Assembly (NCBI GenBank): GCA_947177175.1
Contig: CAMWTK010000012.1
Location: forward strand, 1 to 47,531
DNA from: an uncultured Treponema sp.
GTDB lineage: Bacteria; Spirochaetota; Spirochaetia; Treponematales; Treponemataceae
DNA: 47,531 nucleotides
Direction: 5' to 3'
The notes below the pieces were generated by a model. That model saw nothing but the letters and a program-made list of their open reading frames with translations. It searched no databases and was not told the DNA's origin. Every line of letters starts with the position of its first letter. Position 1 is the first letter of the stretch. Positions 13,120 to 47,531 of this stretch are shown here, one piece after another. The position numbers were made by a program, and so were the translations under genes.

Positions 13120-14382
13120 ATGCCGAAGATCACGCAATACAAAAAGGGTGCGGTCGTCTTTTTCAAGGGCGATACCGACGATCGCATCTTTATCCTGCAA
13201 CAAGGGCTTGCCGTCAGTATGACGGTTGACATCGAGACAAAACTACGCCTCAACGAGCGGATTAGAGCCGGGGAATTCTTTGGCGTAAAAAGCGCGCTCG
13301 GTCAGTTCCCGCGCGAAGAGACCGTCTCTATCGAAGAAGATTCCGTCTGCATTTCCATGACCGTCCCCGAATTCGAGACGATGTTCGCGTCCAACACGCA
13401 GATAATCATGAAAATGCTGCGCGTGTTCTCCGGGCAGCTGCGGCAAGTGCACCGCAAAACCGAATCTATCCTGCACAAGGACGACGAAATCAACCAGGTG
13501 TCGGGTATGCGGGCGGTGGCGCAGGCGTTCTTTGACGACGAGCAGTACCGTTCCTGCTGCGACGTGTGCCTTTCGTTCCTCAAACGCTACCCGGACTATC
13601 CCGGCAGGCTTGACGTGGCAAAACTGTACACGAACGCAAAGCTGAAAGCGCAGGCGCAGGTCGTCGTTCCGCAGGACAAAGTGCCGGACGAACGCTACGA
13701 AACCTACGACGAAGAAGCCTATTCCTATGATGAGGCGCTCCGCCAGTTCGACCTGCCCGCGTTCCAGCGGTTCGCAAAGACGTATGAGCCGGGGCAGGTG
13801 ATTATCTGCGAATACGAGCCGGGCGATTCGTTCTATCTCATTCAGAGCGGCAACGTGCGGCTTGTCAAATGCGTCAACGGCACGAACAAAAACCTTGACA
13901 TCCTGCGCCCCGGCGAGTTCTTTGGCGAAATGGCAATCCTTGACAATTCCCCGCGCTCGGCGACGTGCCTTGCGGCGGACGACGTAAAGTGCCTCGCGTT
14001 CAACAAGGCGAATTTTGACCTCCTGGTGACGGGAAACCCGAAAATGGCGATAAAGCTGCTCAAGCTGTTCTGCAAGCGCATTTACGACCAGAAGCACCGG
14101 CTCAAGATACTGACGATCGCCGACTTGCCGGCGCGCGTGGCGGAAGTGCTCGTGCTGCTCGAAGAAATGTCGCAGAACACGAAACGCTCCGACAAGCGGC
14201 GCGTGGACACGACGATCAACGACATTGCCCGCTGGGCAGGACTTCCGGCGGACACCACCCGTTACGAAATCGACAAATACGTCTCACGCAAGAAAATCCA
14301 GGTGTACGACACCTATATCATCATCAACAGCATCACCGACATGAAGCGACTTGCGTCGAGCAGTCAGATTTCACGCGAGTAG
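13120..14382 (+). CDS. CRP-like regulator with two cyclic nucleotide-binding domains
   Basis: 420 residues. The first cNMP-binding fold is at about 1-120 (YKKGAVVFFKGDTDDRIFILQQG...GEFFG). A linker of about 110 residues includes an acidic Tyr-rich patch. The second, better conserved fold is at about 235-350 (YEPGQVIICEYEPGDSFYLIQSG...PGEFFGEMAILDNSPRSAT). A C-terminal CRP-type helix-turn-helix region (TTINDIARWAGLPADTTRYEIDKYVSRKKI) follows. The phosphate-binding GE-x6-R/SA signature is complete only in the second domain (GEMAILDNSPRSAT), so that domain probably binds the nucleotide. Likely a transcription factor; its targets are unknown. Confidence 0.87.
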   Translation: MPKITQYKKGAVVFFKGDTDDRIFILQQGLAVSMTVDIETKLRLNERIRAGEFFGVKSALGQFPREETVSIEEDSVCISMTVPEFETMFASNTQIIMKMLRVFSGQLRQVHRKTESILHKDDEINQVSGMRAVAQAFFDDEQYRSCCDVCLSFLKRYPDYPGRLDVAKLYTNAKLKAQAQVVVPQDKVPDERYETYDEEAYSYDEALRQFDLPAFQRFAKTYEPGQVIICEYEPGDSFYLIQSGNVRLVKCVNGTNKNLDILRPGEFFGEMAILDNSPRSATCLAADDVKCLAFNKANFDLLVTGNPKMAIKLLKLFCKRIYDQKHRLKILTIADLPARVAEVLVLLEEMSQNTKRSDKRRVDTTINDIARWAGLPADTTRYEIDKYVSRKKIQVYDTYIIINSITDMKRLASSSQISRE

Positions 14383-14409
14383 TTTTTGCCAATAACGTGC
14401 GCAAAGCGA

Positions 14410-14438
14410 TTGACTGAACTGCTTATATTTGTTATGAT
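14410..14438 (+). promoter_or_regulatory. tRNA-Thr promoter
   Basis: -35 TTGACT (14410-14415), 17-nt spacer, -10 TATGAT (14433-14438), with the start expected about 3 nt before the tRNA. Confidence 0.8.
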
Positions 14439-14447
14439 ACCATATTC

Positions 14448-14520
14448 GCCAACTTAGCTCATCCGGTAGAGCAGCGCATTCGTAACGCGCAGGTGGTTGG
14501 TTCAAGTCCGACAGTTGGCT
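14448..14520 (+). tRNA. tRNA-Thr (anticodon CGT)
   Basis: 73 nt. Acceptor GCCAACT/AGTTGGC, discriminator T, D-arm GCTC/GAGC, anticodon loop TTCGTAA giving CGT (reads ACG), T-arm GTTGG-TTCAAGT-CCGAC. The anticodon stem GCGCA/CGCGC has an A-C mismatch at the base next to the loop. CCA is not encoded. Confidence 0.94.
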
Positions 14521-14523
14521 CTA

Positions 14524-14549
14524 TCCCGCACTCGTTGCGGGATTTTTTT
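14524..14549 (+). terminator. rho-independent terminator after tRNA-Thr
   Basis: Stem TCCCGCA (14524-14530)/TGCGGGA (14536-14542), loop CTCGT, then seven T. It lies between the tRNA and fusA, so it could also attenuate read-through into fusA, for which I see no separate strong promoter. Confidence 0.85.
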
Positions 14550-14580
14550 CACAGGAAACTTTTTTTGAGAGGTAAACAAT

Positions 14581-16668
<2,088 letters not shown>

Positions 16669-41233: not shown

Positions 41234-41878
41234 TTAATCCCATAGCAGGCTGACGTTCCCGCTCATTGCAAAGCGGTACGACCAGCGCACGAAATCCCCA
41301 AAATCTGATTCCCGGTAAGGAATGCCGCGGGAATGGCAGTAGGCAATCTGCGCCGCCTTTCTGCTTACCCCGCACTGCTTTTCTATGTCGTCTATCTCCA
41401 TGTTCCGCACGATGTCCGGCTTGCACAAAAATGCCCCGGCGAAGGTGTTTGCCTGCCATTCGGGATCCATTGCCTTCAGCGTCGCGTCTGAAAAGTCGTC
41501 GATTTTTTCGAGCGGCATGGTATGCGGAATGCCCCATAGTTTAAACAGGATATAATGCGCTATCTCATGCAAAATGGTGAACCGTGCCCTGCCGTCACCT
41601 AACATTGCCTTGCCGTAGACATCGGCGCGGATATAAATGACGTTCTTTTGCGCGTCATAATACGCCTCCTCTTCTCTGTACCATTCATCCGGCACGGAGA
41701 ACGTGATGTCGTCATCAAAAAGCGACGGGAGCATAAATTCCAGTATGCCAAGGACATCAATGTACAGGATATGTATTCCGATTTTTAGTAATTCTCGGAT
41801 TTTAAGGGCAAGCCGAACGACATCTTTCCGGCTTTTTGGTTTTACCACAATCAGGTTATAGTTTTCGTCTAAAGTCAT
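41234..41878 (-). CDS. ImmA/IrrE family metallo-endopeptidase
   Basis: 214 residues. Zinc motif HEIAHY (HExxH at 104-108) follows FTILHEIAHYILFKLWG, with the third acidic ligand expected in the EWQANTFAGAFLC segment (about 138-150), exactly the ImmA/IrrE pattern. Such proteases cleave partner XRE repressors, for example ImmA on ImmR in ICEBs1. Its gene overlaps the XRE gene by ATGA (41875-41878), supporting a repressor/protease pair. Confidence 0.88.
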   Translation of the reverse strand: MTLDENYNLIVVKPKSRKDVVRLALKIRELLKIGIHILYIDVLGILEFMLPSLFDDDITFSVPDEWYREEEAYYDAQKNVIYIRADVYGKAMLGDGRARFTILHEIAHYILFKLWGIPHTMPLEKIDDFSDATLKAMDPEWQANTFAGAFLCKPDIVRNMEIDDIEKQCGVSRKAAQIAYCHSRGIPYRESDFGDFVRWSYRFAMSGNVSLLWD

Positions 41879-42255
41879 AGCATCTCCTCAGAAGTTTTTT
41901 TGTCGGCCATGTGGCTGAGCATAGCCCGCAGTTCTTTTACAGAAAGATTTTTGATTTCTCGCGCGAACATAACGGCCGCGTCCACTGCTTCCGGGGGGGC
42001 ATCCTGCAAATCTATGGTGAGCGATTTGTTCGTGTCCGCTTCGGCCTTCAGAAGGCGTGTCCGCAATGCATGGTCAAATTTATATGCCTCCGACACTTTT
42101 TCGGTCAGCCCGGCCGGAATCGCCCTGCTGCCCGTTTCTATTGAAGAAAGATAGGCCGGCGAAATGTCCAATTCCTTTGCCATAGCCGCAAGCAGAATCC
42201 GATTGTCCAGTCGGTAATGCCGCAAGATTTTTCCGTATTCGGTCAGTGCGTTCAT
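41875..42255 (-). CDS. XRE family transcriptional regulator
   Basis: 126 residues. The helix-turn-helix (ILRHYRLDNRILLAAMAKELDISPAYLSSIETGSRAIP, about 9-46) is followed by a helical C-terminal region that probably dimerises or is recognised by the protease. The ribosome site AGGAG precedes the ATG. Likely autorepressor of the XRE-immA-66aa-DUF4469 operon through the TTCACA sites upstream. The pairing with ImmA is characteristic of integrative elements and toxin-antitoxin-like modules. Confidence 0.88.
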   Translation of the reverse strand: MNALTEYGKILRHYRLDNRILLAAMAKELDISPAYLSSIETGSRAIPAGLTEKVSEAYKFDHALRTRLLKAEADTNKSLTIDLQDAPPEAVDAAVMFAREIKNLSVKELRAMLSHMADKKTSEEML

Positions 42256-42284
42256 AGGGTTCTCCTGTCATATTGTTCTCCTTT

Positions 42285-42337
42285 TTCACAGAATATCATA
42301 TTTATTTTTAAAGTCAATTATTTTCACAATATGTGAA
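42285..42337 (-). promoter_or_regulatory. XRE operon promoter with operators
   Basis: Minus strand -35 TTGACT (42317-42312), 16-nt spacer, -10 TATTCT (42295-42290). A perfect inverted repeat TTCACA-ATA-TGTGAA (42323-42337) lies just upstream of the -35. A half-site TTCACA (42285-42290) overlaps the -10. This is a good fit to XRE autoregulation. Confidence 0.68.
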
Positions 42338-42349
42338 TAGAGCAATCCC

Positions 42350-42491
42350 GTTAGTGTCCTTAACGGAGCGTTTTCCGTTAAGGACATTAACCGCGTGGTT
42401 TCCGTTAAGGTTCTTAACGGTGCCAAGGAGAGTGGTTTAAACATGGCAAGGAGAGCTCCCTCTCGCCGTAAGTCTTGGCGGCTCTCCTTGC
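42350..42491. repeat. structured intergenic region with three nested inverted repeats
   Basis: An 18-nt arm pair with one mismatch (GTTAGTGTCCTTAACGGA 42350-42367/42374-42391) is followed by CCGTTAAG-gtt-CTTAACGG (42402-42420), sharing the CCGTTAAG core. A third hairpin GCAAGGAGAGC (42446-42456)/GCTCTCCTTGC (42481-42491) contains an inner CGCC/GGCG stem. No ORF with a ribosome site is seen in this 360-nt gap. A structured RNA or protein-binding region is possible. Confidence 0.65.
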
Positions 42492-42537
42492 AGGGAGAGG
42501 ATGGGTCTCGCGGAGAGTGCATTTTTTTCGGGAAATG

Positions 42538-42546
42538 TGATATAAT
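42538..42546 (+). promoter_or_regulatory. hsd operon extended -10 promoter
   Basis: TGA-TATAAT (hexamer 42541-42546); -35 weak. The leader is about 62 nt, with GGAGG before the hsdM ATG. Confidence 0.6.
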
Positions 42547-42615
42547 GCAATAAGGGATTTCTTTGTAAAAGCATGACTATTCGTGCACAAAATAAAACAA
42601 CGGAGGAACGCCCTG

Positions 42616-44508
42616 ATGAGCAACAATACAATTTCAGACACGATGTGGGATGACAATCCCATTGACATAACGCAAGAGGCGAATTTTATTTGGTCGATTG
42701 CGAACAAGTTGCGCGGCTCGTATATGCCCGACCATTACGGTGATGTGATTATTCCCATGACGATTTTGCGCAGGTTTGAGTGCGCACTCGAAGAGAAGAA
42801 GCGGAAAGTCGTAGATGCGTTCAAAGCCGACTCCGCATTGCCGTACAAGAAGCTGTGCAAAATTTCGGGATTCCAGTTTTACAATACGAGCGAATACACG
42901 CTTGCGGAGCTGTGCAACGATTCCAAGCGCATAGCGGCAAATTTCAAGAATTACCTAGAGGGCTTTTCGCCGAATGTATACGAGATTTTCAGTGATTTGG
43001 AAATGTCCAAGCACATTGACAAAATGGACAAGGACGGCTGCCTTTATACGGTGGTGGAGGCGTTTGCCACGCTCGATTTGTCCATTCAGACATACGACAG
43101 CATAAAAATGGGATATATTTTTGAAAACCTCATCGGCAGGTTTTTCCAGAACGTTGACGCAGGACAATTCTATACGGGCAGGGACATAATCAAGCTTTTG
43201 GTGGAAATCTTGCTGGCGGAAGGGTGCGACGACATTTTTGACAGCCACAAGGTCATTACCGTCCTTGACCAAGCGTGCGGAACGGGCGGAATGCTGTCCA
43301 CGGCGTATTCGTACATAATGCACTATAATCCCACGGCTGAAGTGCGGCTTTTCGGGCAAGAATTTATGGGGCAGACGTATGCCATAGGACTTGCCGAAAT
43401 GCTCATCAAAAATCAGGATGCCGACAACTTCCGCCATATCGATACTTTTAAAGAGGACTGCTTTCCCGATACGAAAATGCGCTTTGTCATCGAAAACGGC
43501 TCGCCTTTGTTCAATGGCGACACCGCTTCGGGCGAAAGCCAGATACGCCGCTGGCTTTTGGAGCGCGATTTAATCGAGGCGATTATCGCGCTGCCGACGG
43601 ACTTGTTCTACAATACTGGCATTCAGACTTATGTGTGGATTTTGTCCAAGAACAAGCGGAATGAACGCCGCGGCAAAATCCAGCTCATAAACGCAGCGGA
43701 CATTTATCATAAGTTGCGCAAGGCGGTGGGCAACAAAAAGAACGAAATAACCAAAGAGGACAGGAAAGCAATCACGCATTTGTACGCGGATTTCGTACCC
43801 ACCGAAAACTGCAAGATATTCGACAATACGGAATTCCTGTACCGCGAATATGCGGTAATGCAGCCGCTGCAAAGAAACTATGCCATTACCGAAGAGCGCA
43901 TAGAGCAGATGCTCGCAAAGGGCACGCTGTCGTCCTTATATGACGAAGCGAAAGTGGCGGAATTTGAAAGCAAGGGCATCGCCATCGAAGAAAAGGACAG
44001 ACGCAAATATGAGGCGATGCTGAACAACAAGCCGCTTTACGAAAGCCTCTTGCGGACGCTCAAGGCGAACGTTTCGGACAAACTTTACAAAGAGCCGAAA
44101 GGTTTTGTCGAGCGGCTTTCCGCGATTCTTCCGGCGGACAAAAAATTGATAGAAAAGATTGCCGCAGGACTTTCCGAAATGGACAAGACGGCGGCAATCC
44201 AGCGCGACAAGAACGGCGACATTCTTTACGACAAAGAAACCTATGACAAGGAAATCGTAAAGTACGCCGAGAACATCGAGGACTATATGGCGCGCGAAGT
44301 CTTGCCTTACGTTCCCGACGCGCAGTGGTTTTGGGAGGAAAACCTCGGCGCGAAAAAGCCCGTCATAAAAGTGGGCGCGGAAATTCCGTTCACAAGGTAT
44401 TTCTATACATACAGCCAGCCACAGCCGAGCGCAGAGCTTGCCGCGAAGTTTATGGAACTGGAAGCAAGCGTGAGCGAAAGGATAAAAGGATTGTTCGGAG
44501 AGAAATAA
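42616..44508 (+). CDS. hsdM: type I restriction-modification methyltransferase subunit, lacking the NPPF motif segment
   Basis: 630 residues from MSNNTISDTMWDD, with GGAGG about 10 nt upstream. The N-terminal HsdM helical domain (1-150), ENLIGRFFQNVDAGQFYTGRDI and SAM-binding motif I VLDQACGTGG (216-225) are intact. GQEFMGQTYAIGLAEMLIKNQDADN is also family-typical. In relatives, DTKMRF(V/I)I is followed by ANPPFG and some 65 residues before IIENGSPLF. Here DTKMRFVIENGSPLF (285-299) joins the two directly, removing catalytic motif IV. The rest (GDTASGESQIRRWLLE...IALPTDLFYNTGIQTYVWILSKNK and a long C-terminus) is normal. Composition is moderate GC, unlike the AT-rich genes that follow. Confidence 0.9.
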   Translation: MSNNTISDTMWDDNPIDITQEANFIWSIANKLRGSYMPDHYGDVIIPMTILRRFECALEEKKRKVVDAFKADSALPYKKLCKISGFQFYNTSEYTLAELCNDSKRIAANFKNYLEGFSPNVYEIFSDLEMSKHIDKMDKDGCLYTVVEAFATLDLSIQTYDSIKMGYIFENLIGRFFQNVDAGQFYTGRDIIKLLVEILLAEGCDDIFDSHKVITVLDQACGTGGMLSTAYSYIMHYNPTAEVRLFGQEFMGQTYAIGLAEMLIKNQDADNFRHIDTFKEDCFPDTKMRFVIENGSPLFNGDTASGESQIRRWLLERDLIEAIIALPTDLFYNTGIQTYVWILSKNKRNERRGKIQLINAADIYHKLRKAVGNKKNEITKEDRKAITHLYADFVPTENCKIFDNTEFLYREYAVMQPLQRNYAITEERIEQMLAKGTLSSLYDEAKVAEFESKGIAIEEKDRRKYEAMLNNKPLYESLLRTLKANVSDKLYKEPKGFVERLSAILPADKKLIEKIAAGLSEMDKTAAIQRDKNGDILYDKETYDKEIVKYAENIEDYMAREVLPYVPDAQWFWEENLGAKKPVIKVGAEIPFTRYFYTYSQPQPSAELAAKFMELEASVSERIKGLFGEK

Positions 44509-44509
44509 A

Positions 44510-45349
44510 ATGTCGAATGAAGATATTATGAAAGACGTGATACTTGAGACCGCAAAGCAAGTGGCAGTTGATGTTTATAAAGATACAACTCATCCAACGG
44601 CAAAAAACATTGGAGGTTTTTTGGGAACTCTTTCAGGCTTCTTTAATCATGTTGTAATGTATCCTCTTAAAAAATTAAATATAAAATACGAACAAAAAGC
44701 CATTGCTTTTGAAAAAGCAATGGAAAAAAAGTTTAATGCTATACCAGAAAATGATAGGGTCGAACCACAATTGCATATAGTTGGCCCGGCATTGGAATCA
44801 TTAAAATATAACATCATGGAAGATGATATTGCTGAAATGTATTCCAACTTACTTTTAAGCGACATGGATAATAAAACTCAATCTCTTTGTTCTCCAGCTT
44901 TTATAAAAATAATCGAGCAGTTATCCCCAATAGATGCAAGAGTATATAAAAGTATAATTGATATGCTTAAACAGAAAAATGCCTTACCTATATGCTCAAT
45001 AAATTTTATCAAAAAAAGTGACCCTCAACTGTTCTACACGATACAGTTACCGAAGTATTACAGTGAAAAATGCGAAAAAATGGATGATTTTGCATTTAGT
45101 GCTTCCTTGGTAAATCTTAATAGGTTAGGATTATTGAATTTTTCTTTTATGCAATGGCTTACAGATGACAATCAATATACTGCTCTTTTACAAAGTGAAA
45201 GCATAAAAGAGAGATTATTGTTCTTGCAAACTAAAAATGACGGAGATGTGGATACATATATTTTTAATAAAGGTGTTATAGAAATAAATGATTTTTCAAA
45301 ATCGTTCGCAAGGGTATGTTTTAGAGGAGGTAGCGTATGCGAAAAATGA
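44510..45349 (+). CDS. DUF4393/Abi-alpha family protein
   Basis: 279 residues, one base after hsdM. The region 75-150 (VEPQLHIVGPALESLKYNIMEDDIAEMYSNLLLSDMDNKTQSLCSPAFIKIIEQLSPIDARVY) matches the DUF4393 (Abi-alpha) pattern: I-GPA-E-x2-(K)Y, E-D(E/D)L-x2-(M)-YANLL, HP-F-x-IIxQLSPLDA. An N-terminal segment with Lys-rich helices (LKKLNIKYEQKAIAFEKAM) precedes it. Members are linked to abortive infection by context; the mechanism is unknown. Strongly AT-rich, suggesting acquisition separate from hsdM. Confidence 0.75.
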   Translation: MSNEDIMKDVILETAKQVAVDVYKDTTHPTAKNIGGFLGTLSGFFNHVVMYPLKKLNIKYEQKAIAFEKAMEKKFNAIPENDRVEPQLHIVGPALESLKYNIMEDDIAEMYSNLLLSDMDNKTQSLCSPAFIKIIEQLSPIDARVYKSIIDMLKQKNALPICSINFIKKSDPQLFYTIQLPKYYSEKCEKMDDFAFSASLVNLNRLGLLNFSFMQWLTDDNQYTALLQSESIKERLLFLQTKNDGDVDTYIFNKGVIEINDFSKSFARVCFRGGSVCEK

Positions 45350-45420
45350 AAAAGTGAAGTGATTTTGATTTGACGGATGTCATTCAAGAAATAAACGAAT
45401 TAATTGGAGGAGTGATTGCT

Positions 45421-46221
45421 ATGGATGAAACAACAAAAGAAAAATTTTTAGACCTATTCACAAAACAAGGTGTGTATGGCAGATTAAAATGTGCATATAA
45501 AGATTTTCATGATTTTATTTGTAACGAAACATTGCGGAGTATGGATTTATATTGTACTAAATGTAAATCGAATAAAACGTTTGTGCATAACGGCTATAAA
45601 AGTATTGAACAATTTGGTATGGCATCAATAGAGTCGTATTCGTTTTATGCGTATTCTTTAAGGTATAACTGCCCAACTTGTCAGAATAATTTGTGGTATA
45701 TTTTTTACTATGATAAAAACAAAGAATCAGTCGTAAAACTTGCACAATATCCCACACTCCATGACGTAACGCCGGACGAATTAAAGAAATACAAAAAAAA
45801 TGATTTAATTGACGAGGAAAGCTTTAATCAAATTTATAAGGCAGATACTTGTGCAAGCGAAAGCTATTTTATTGCAGCTTATACATATATGCGTCGTGTA
45901 TATGAGTCATTGCTTGTTAATATATTTACACAAAATAAAGAAGAAATAGGAATCAGTGAAGAAGATTTTAAAAAACTTCGTTCAGATGAAAAAATTGCAA
46001 AAATAAAACCGTATTTAGCGATTGATGATGAAATATACAAACCGCTATATGCGTTGCTTAGTGCCGGCATACATTCTTTAAGCGAAGAAGAATGCCGTGA
46101 AGATTATACCCTTCTAAAAAGTATTTTACTTGATATAATAGCGGAACAAAAAGCAAGAAAAGAAAAAGAAGAAAAACGAAAAAATATTAAAGATTTATAT
46201 TCAAAAAGGAAGGGAAAATAA
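45421..46221 (+). CDS. unrecognised protein with zinc ribbon and HEPN-like C-terminus
   Basis: 266 residues if started at the ATG at 45421 (GGAGG 10 nt upstream); a TTG 17 codons earlier is possible. Two CxxC pairs (C45/C48 in YCTKCKSN and C84/C87 in NCPTCQNN) form a zinc ribbon around a 35-residue spacer. The C-terminal part (about 148-225; YFIAAYTYMRRVYESLLVNIF...KIKPYLAIDDEIYKPLYALLSAGIHSLSEEE) resembles DUF4145/HEPN-type helical domains found in defence loci, but the R-x4-6-H ribonuclease motif is not evident. It is AT-rich, inside a type I R-M operon, and 5 nt before hsdS. Confidence 0.6.
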   Translation: MDETTKEKFLDLFTKQGVYGRLKCAYKDFHDFICNETLRSMDLYCTKCKSNKTFVHNGYKSIEQFGMASIESYSFYAYSLRYNCPTCQNNLWYIFYYDKNKESVVKLAQYPTLHDVTPDELKKYKKNDLIDEESFNQIYKADTCASESYFIAAYTYMRRVYESLLVNIFTQNKEEIGISEEDFKKLRSDEKIAKIKPYLAIDDEIYKPLYALLSAGIHSLSEEECREDYTLLKSILLDIIAEQKARKEKEEKRKNIKDLYSKRKGK

Positions 46222-46226
46222 AACTC

Positions 46227-47483
46227 ATGCGGCAAATGAAAGATAGCGGAATCGCTTGGGTGGGAGAGATTCCGCAAGATTGGGATATTCAAAAAAACAA
46301 ATATATTTTTAAGATAACTAAAGATATAGTTTTGCCCAATAAAAATTATCAATTATTATCTCTTACTACTAATGGCATTAGAGAAAAAGATGAAAATAAT
46401 GTTAATGGAAAAGTTCCAGAAAATTATGACGATTATCAAATTGTTAGAAAGAAAGATTTGGTAATGTGTTTATTTGATTTGGATTGCTCTGCTGTTTTCG
46501 CAGGTTTAAGCAAATATGAGGGTATGATTTCTCCTGCATATAAAGTTTTGAAAACTAATAACTCAAAGGCAAATGAGCGTTATTATGCATATTGGTTTAA
46601 TTATGTAAGTTCAAAACGTTATTACAAGCAGTATTCTAAAAGTTTAAGATATACGCTTAATGCTGATGAATTTAGTAGACTATTTTCGCCAGTTCCACCG
46701 CTTGATGAACAACAACGCATTGCGGATTTTTTAGATAAGGAATGCGAAAAAATTGACGGGTTAAAAACGGACACTCAGACACAAATTGATATGCTCGAAC
46801 AATATAAGCGTTCTGTAATAACCGAGGCGGTAACGCACGGACTTAATCTAAATGTCCCTATGAAAGATAGCGGGGCTGGTTGGATGCCGTTTGTGCCAAA
46901 GCATTGGGAAGTGGAAAAGTTCAAATATCATTTGCGATTACGTGGCGTTAAAAACCAAATTGATAAACAGGTTTTGTCTTTGTATAGAGAATTGGGGATT
47001 GTTCCAAAAAATAGTAGAGATGATAATCATAATGTTACTTCGGAAGATGTTTCTGATTATAGATATGTTCGAGCCGGAGATTTTGTAGTTAATAAGATGA
47101 AGGCGTGGCAAGGCTCTGTTGCCATATCGGACTATGAGGGTATTGTTAGTCCGGCATACTATGTGTATGAATTTATTAACGATGAAATAGACAAAAAGTA
47201 TTTTCACTATTTAATACGCAATAAATCGTATACTACGGAATTCAGAAGGTTGTCAGGTGGTATTAGAGAAGGACAATGGGATTTGCCTGCGGAAGCATTA
47301 CAAAACACGTTGGTTTTGTTGCCTCCTCTTGATGAGCAAAAAGCAATTGCCGATTATCTCGACCACAAATGTGCCGAAATCGAGCAAATCATCGCCGACA
47401 AAAAGACACAACTCGACACGCTTGACGACTATAAAAAATCGCTCATTTACGAATATGTCACCGGCAAAAAGGAGGCCGCATGA
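46227..47483 (+). CDS. hsdS: type I restriction-modification specificity subunit
   Basis: 418 residues from MRQMKDSGIAWVGEIPQDWDI. Two target-recognition domains each begin with MKDSG...W (4-20 and about 212-228). They are separated by conserved helical spacers LDEQQRIADFLDKECEKIDGLKT and LDEQKAIADYLDHKCAEIEQIIA. The two halves set the bipartite DNA target. Most of the gene is AT-rich, but the last ~150 nt return to a GC-richer composition. It overlaps the hsdR start by ATGA (47480-47483). Confidence 0.93.
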   Translation: MRQMKDSGIAWVGEIPQDWDIQKNKYIFKITKDIVLPNKNYQLLSLTTNGIREKDENNVNGKVPENYDDYQIVRKKDLVMCLFDLDCSAVFAGLSKYEGMISPAYKVLKTNNSKANERYYAYWFNYVSSKRYYKQYSKSLRYTLNADEFSRLFSPVPPLDEQQRIADFLDKECEKIDGLKTDTQTQIDMLEQYKRSVITEAVTHGLNLNVPMKDSGAGWMPFVPKHWEVEKFKYHLRLRGVKNQIDKQVLSLYRELGIVPKNSRDDNHNVTSEDVSDYRYVRAGDFVVNKMKAWQGSVAISDYEGIVSPAYYVYEFINDEIDKKYFHYLIRNKSYTTEFRRLSGGIREGQWDLPAEALQNTLVLLPPLDEQKAIADYLDHKCAEIEQIIADKKTQLDTLDDYKKSLIYEYVTGKKEAA

Positions 47484-47531
47484 ACAATATACTTTCCGAA
47501 AAAGAATACCAGCGTTACATGGCGGAAATGC
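47480..47531 (+). CDS. hsdR: type I restriction enzyme R subunit (N-terminal fragment)
   Basis: Only 17 codons are visible: MNNILSEKEYQRYMAEM. The SEKEYQRY start is typical of HsdR N-termini. GGAGG precedes it and the start overlaps the hsdS stop. The gene runs off the window. Confidence 0.8.
   Translation, partial: MNNILSEKEYQRYMAEM

Follow-up and report, generated by a model that had tools for sequence, protein, structure and literature searches.

Can a cell tolerate a type I restriction-modification operon whose methyltransferase gene has lost its catalytic motif, and could such a gene still serve a purpose? The question arises at the 3' end of the window, by which we mean the whole stretch of 47,531 nucleotides analysed here from an uncultured Treponema sp. 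(contig CAMWTK010000012.1). The HsdM protein encoded there matches HsdM_N (PF12161, E 5.9e-22) and, in two stretches, N6_Mtase (PF02384), and retains the SAM motif I DQACGTGG. The hsdS gene beside it, which the initial annotation took to be apparently intact, is indeed full length and lies in the same operon, as expected of a type I system (Table 1). The domain order, motif I and an operon with hsdS and hsdR are shared with ordinary type I HsdM (Pfam HsdM_N and N6_Mtase; PADLOC PDLC03029 MTase_I). In contrast to these, the window protein lacks 67 residues and with them the catalytic motif IV, NPP(F/Y/W), so that it cannot be a working methyltransferase. Judged by its sequence, the protein is a type I HsdM by descent that is broken and no longer a working enzyme.

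Table 1. Features of the hsd operon, with positions in the window.
Feature	Position	Strand	Description
Type I restriction-modification operon	42616-47531	+	3' end of window; order hsdM, two cargo genes, hsdS, hsdR start
hsdM, whole	42616-44508	+	ATG at 42616, stop ending 44508; GGAGG upstream of ATG
hsdM 5' part	42616-43488	+	HsdM_N helical domain, motif I (DQACGTGG), to ...TKMRFV; Pfam HsdM_N and N6_Mtase matches
Deletion junction	43489-43497	+	Single leftover copy of direct repeat ATCGAAAAC (I-E-N)
hsdM 3' part	43498-44508	+	GSPLF..., remaining MTase domain, C-terminal region, in frame to stop
Cargo gene 1	44510-45349	+	Abi_alpha (PF14337) / PADLOC candidate PDC-S47; between hsdM and hsdS
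Cargo gene 2	45370-46221	+	283-aa ORF, TTG start as listed
hsdS	46227-47483	+	418 aa, full length; Methylase_S match in two stretches
hsdR start	47481-47531	+	17 codons, then contig end

The loss is a single contiguous block. HsdM relatives were gathered from species genomes and 23 were aligned with the window protein; all 23 contain the block, including the PPF of motif IV. The gap amounts to 67 residues (201 bp) against the nearest relatives L024, L006 and L007, and mostly to 66 residues against the other relatives measured, in which the two sites are spaced 198 bp apart. The initial annotation, with about 65 residues, was nearly right. Relatives read RF(V/L/M)(I/L)ENPPFGTPW... to ...AIIxN(G/A)SPLF, usually with E at x. 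The window has RFVIENGSPLF instead, and DTKMRFVIENGSPLF is encoded there with no stop or frameshift across the junction. The edges fall between RFV-IEN and PPFG on one side and between AAI-IEN and GSPLF on the other, and the missing block spans PPFG of NPPF to ...RAAI. It comprises the PPF of motif IV, the helix region that follows and the core strand before GSPLF. The clean in-frame deletion of the catalytic segment proposed for 43474-43510 is thus confirmed, and its exact junction lies within 43486-43500 (GTC ATC GAA AAC GGC). Outside the gap, the window HsdM is 89% identical to that of L024. With identity to the nearest relative reaching 89% in the rest of the protein, the absence of one contiguous block is, on this alignment, far beyond chance. 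One intact HsdM relative, with NPPF present, was also found on viral contigs.

The edges of the gap point to how the deletion arose. Both code for I-E-N (VIEN and IIEN), and at the DNA level they form the direct repeat ATCGAAAAC. The intact relative L007 carries an exact 10-bp pair, TTATCGAAAA, at both sites and 201 bp apart, and this pair is one of only two repeats of at least 10 bp within 1 kb in its hsdM. At the protein level, the I-E-N repeat brackets the catalytic segment in most of the HsdM family; at the DNA level, most relatives have it in imperfect form. A single step of replication slippage, or of recombination at short homology, between two in-register I-E-N coding repeats of about 9-11 bp probably removed one repeat and the intervening stretch, 201 bp in all. 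Such a step would explain both the size of the deletion and the kept frame, which is preserved automatically because both copies share the same codon register. The in-frame state alone is therefore no evidence of selection. The initial annotation had considered recombination between similar joined sites plausible. The repeats, the deletion size and the frame are all observed, and from them we infer the recombination event itself.

The deletion appears to be recent. A conservation test covered 210 columns, gap excluded, that are invariant in 19 relatives. The window HsdM breaks none of them, whereas intact relatives tested likewise break 1-12, and the earlier view that all other motifs are present holds. 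Changes specific to the window hsdM comprise 27 nonsynonymous and 71 synonymous substitutions (the L024 side has 14/51 and the L006 side 34/67), with dS at about 1.8 and thus near saturation, so that dN/dS is unusable for dating and the age rests on the absence of further decay. Since hsdM shows no sign of prolonged decay elsewhere, its sequence indicates a recent event. A degenerate pattern of the junction matches one of 200 genomes of the genus, this genome alone (G000:C12:43477-43505).

The shortened protein retains its N-terminal domain together with motif I, but NPPF and a strand-helix unit of the SAM-dependent fold are gone. AlphaFold2 models, built on shallow alignments of 19-20 sequences, give the window HsdM a mean confidence of 65.3 (pTM 0.44) compared with 72.5 (pTM 0.58) for L024. 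Relative to L024, confidence falls from 68 to 47 in the part of the methyltransferase core that precedes the junction and from 86 to 69 in the N-terminal domain; there is no change in the C-terminal part (75 in the window, 74 in L024). The drop is suggestive of a disrupted methyltransferase core, which the deletion probably unfolds. With NPPF and the strand-helix unit gone, no methylation is expected and a competent M2S core probably does not form. Without M2S, HsdR could not be directed to DNA, and the system would most likely be silent (r- m-) and do its host no harm, a step that draws on established type I biochemistry.

The initial annotation had called such a locus dangerous unless hsdR were also inactive or the complex had another role, and had pointed to hsdR beyond the window. 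Part of that gene could be recovered. Its last ~294 codons open contig C21 (L068:3-887), with a normal terminus and 89% identity to L024 across the 205 residues that the two have in common. The middle of the gene (residues ~18 to 706, ~690 codons, ~2.07 kb) is an assembly gap, into which the expected nuclease and motor motifs would fall. The ends of contigs C12 and C21 showed neither an overlap nor repeats within the genome itself. The claim of danger is not supported, as a segment of the fold has been lost and not just a point of NPPF changed, and HsdR activity needs both HsdM and HsdS. HsdS needs HsdM for DNA binding, as the HsdR endonuclease does for its activity (summarised in PMC8084154). 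Group A Streptococcus survives both a spontaneous hsdM deletion of 694 bp and an engineered in-frame one of 1,005 bp, and the engineered one brings no growth defect (PMC8084154). Because the core is probably unfolded, HsdR depends on HsdM and strains with a deleted hsdM survive, danger is not implied, and the deleted hsdM is probably not dangerous to the cell. Restriction alleviation keeps even true type I R+M- mutants under control, which is not so for type IIB (PMC4231737). The source genome encodes ClpX.

Losses of this kind have precedents. The spontaneous group A Streptococcus mutant likewise silenced its type I system through an internal hsdM deletion and remained viable, although that deletion came with a frameshift, whereas the one in the window is 201 bp, in frame and located at a coded direct repeat (PMC8084154). 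Natural type I immune-deficient S. aureus also lost function at the hsd locus in natural populations, but there it is usually hsdR that is lost (loss-of-function mutations of hsdR in 4% of strains, of hsdM in 0.2%) and in the window it is hsdM (PMC13216270). Among the relatives gathered here, frame changes break hsdM in at least three (L023, L027 and L036) and possibly in L039; L036 and L039 are distant, at about 40% identity. The hsdM of L036, a Clostridium sp. MAG (L036:8001-9412), misses ~197 residues across motifs I-IV in addition to the frame change and is, by its sequence, an independent loss. Sequencing errors in the draft assemblies may account for some of the frame breaks. The broken hsdM genes in relatives are consistent with frequent loss of hsdM.

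Taken together, the locus very probably holds a recent loss-of-function hsdM allele, created by a short-repeat deletion in a type I operon that is otherwise ordinary and was probably acquired horizontally. The deletion most likely just switched the defence system off through an ordinary type of mutation, with no sign of a new function. The best-surviving alternative, itself unlikely, is that hsdM is mostly intact in the population, and that either a chimera arose at the short repeat as an assembly or library artefact or a minority allele became the consensus. The assembly is indeed fragmented and MAG-like (2.38 Mb, 111 contigs, 90.4% completeness), breaks 4 kb downstream within hsdR leaving ~2.07 kb unassembled, and the repeat is a possible site of PCR template switching. 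However, the join is exact and clean, and relatives too have frame-broken hsdM copies. A typical de Bruijn graph would not collapse repeats of only 9-11 bp, and reads across the junction should exist.

The cell might instead have retained a catalytically dead HsdM as a structural or DNA-binding subunit, either as a regulator or for restriction without methylation. One point against loss of function speaks here: the allele is in frame and otherwise perfectly conserved, motif I included, which would equally fit a retained function, and hsdS and the hsdR C-terminus are intact. Yet the deletion removed a core strand and helix and not NPPF alone, the predicted confidence of the core is lower, and the allele is private to this genome with no hint of maintenance. 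We consider such retention highly improbable. On the structural models, a DNA-binding, restriction-competent complex with the deleted HsdM is unlikely, and we give very little weight to the idea that the dead in-frame protein folds and joins HsdS and HsdR in a complex that binds or restricts DNA independently of methylation, for a purpose other than self-marking. Also highly improbable is a reversible switch in which hsdM phase-varies by way of the short repeats, even though the repeat flanks the catalytic segment at the protein level in most of the family, given that a 201-bp deletion between short repeats is irreversible without a template, that most relatives carry an imperfect DNA repeat, and that neither the missing segment (chance match at E 0.4 only) nor a second copy of the window hsdM was found in an assembly that misses about 10% of the genome. 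As far as 90% of the genome shows, there is no other copy of the segment from which the cell itself could undo the loss. Contig C48 carries a distant type I system with an intact NPPY, which was considered as a complementing methylase and rejected as too diverged (about 22% identity).

The surroundings of the deleted hsdM carry other putative defence functions. Close relatives differ in the genes that separate hsdM from hsdS and, in the relatives, hsdS from hsdR as well (window 44510-46221; L024:10109-12600 and 13891-15375; L025:10101-12240 and 13553-14578). The cargo is of the Abi_alpha/PDC-S47 type in the window, and KAP NTPase (PDC-S20), AbiJ-like (PDC-S32) and FRG (PDC-S15) genes occur elsewhere, along with several genes lacking any family. 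By this comparison of gene content, the hsd operon behaves as a carrier of exchangeable defence cargo. The 283-aa ORF embedded in the operon has two CxxC pairs and no significant match in Pfam, PADLOC or NCBIfam, and is a candidate defence gene. Directly upstream of hsdM and divergent from it lies a pair encoding an HTH regulator and an IrrE/ImmA-like peptidase (41234-42255, minus strand), which may regulate the island. Past the hsdR end, contig C21 (L068:884-6860) encodes a Fic/DOC protein with a winged helix, an 822-aa ORF with a P-loop-like motif and, identified by eye, an AAA-ATPase-like/RloB-like gene pair, and the stretch looks like a continuation of the defence island. G+C drops from about 59% to 35-47% across the operon (window 42000-47531), and the best hsdM relatives are mostly from gut Clostridia and not from the host's own genus. 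These two features make it probable that the hsd operon was horizontally acquired.

For the most part, the probably silent locus represents ordinary decay in a known kind of system and its meaning is modest. What stands apart is a weak point built into the HsdM family, in which an in-frame coding of IEN lies on either side of the catalytic segment. A single short-repeat deletion kills the enzyme yet preserves the reading frame. Annotation by domain searches still labels the deleted gene HsdM, and surveys of defence genes would score a silent system as active.
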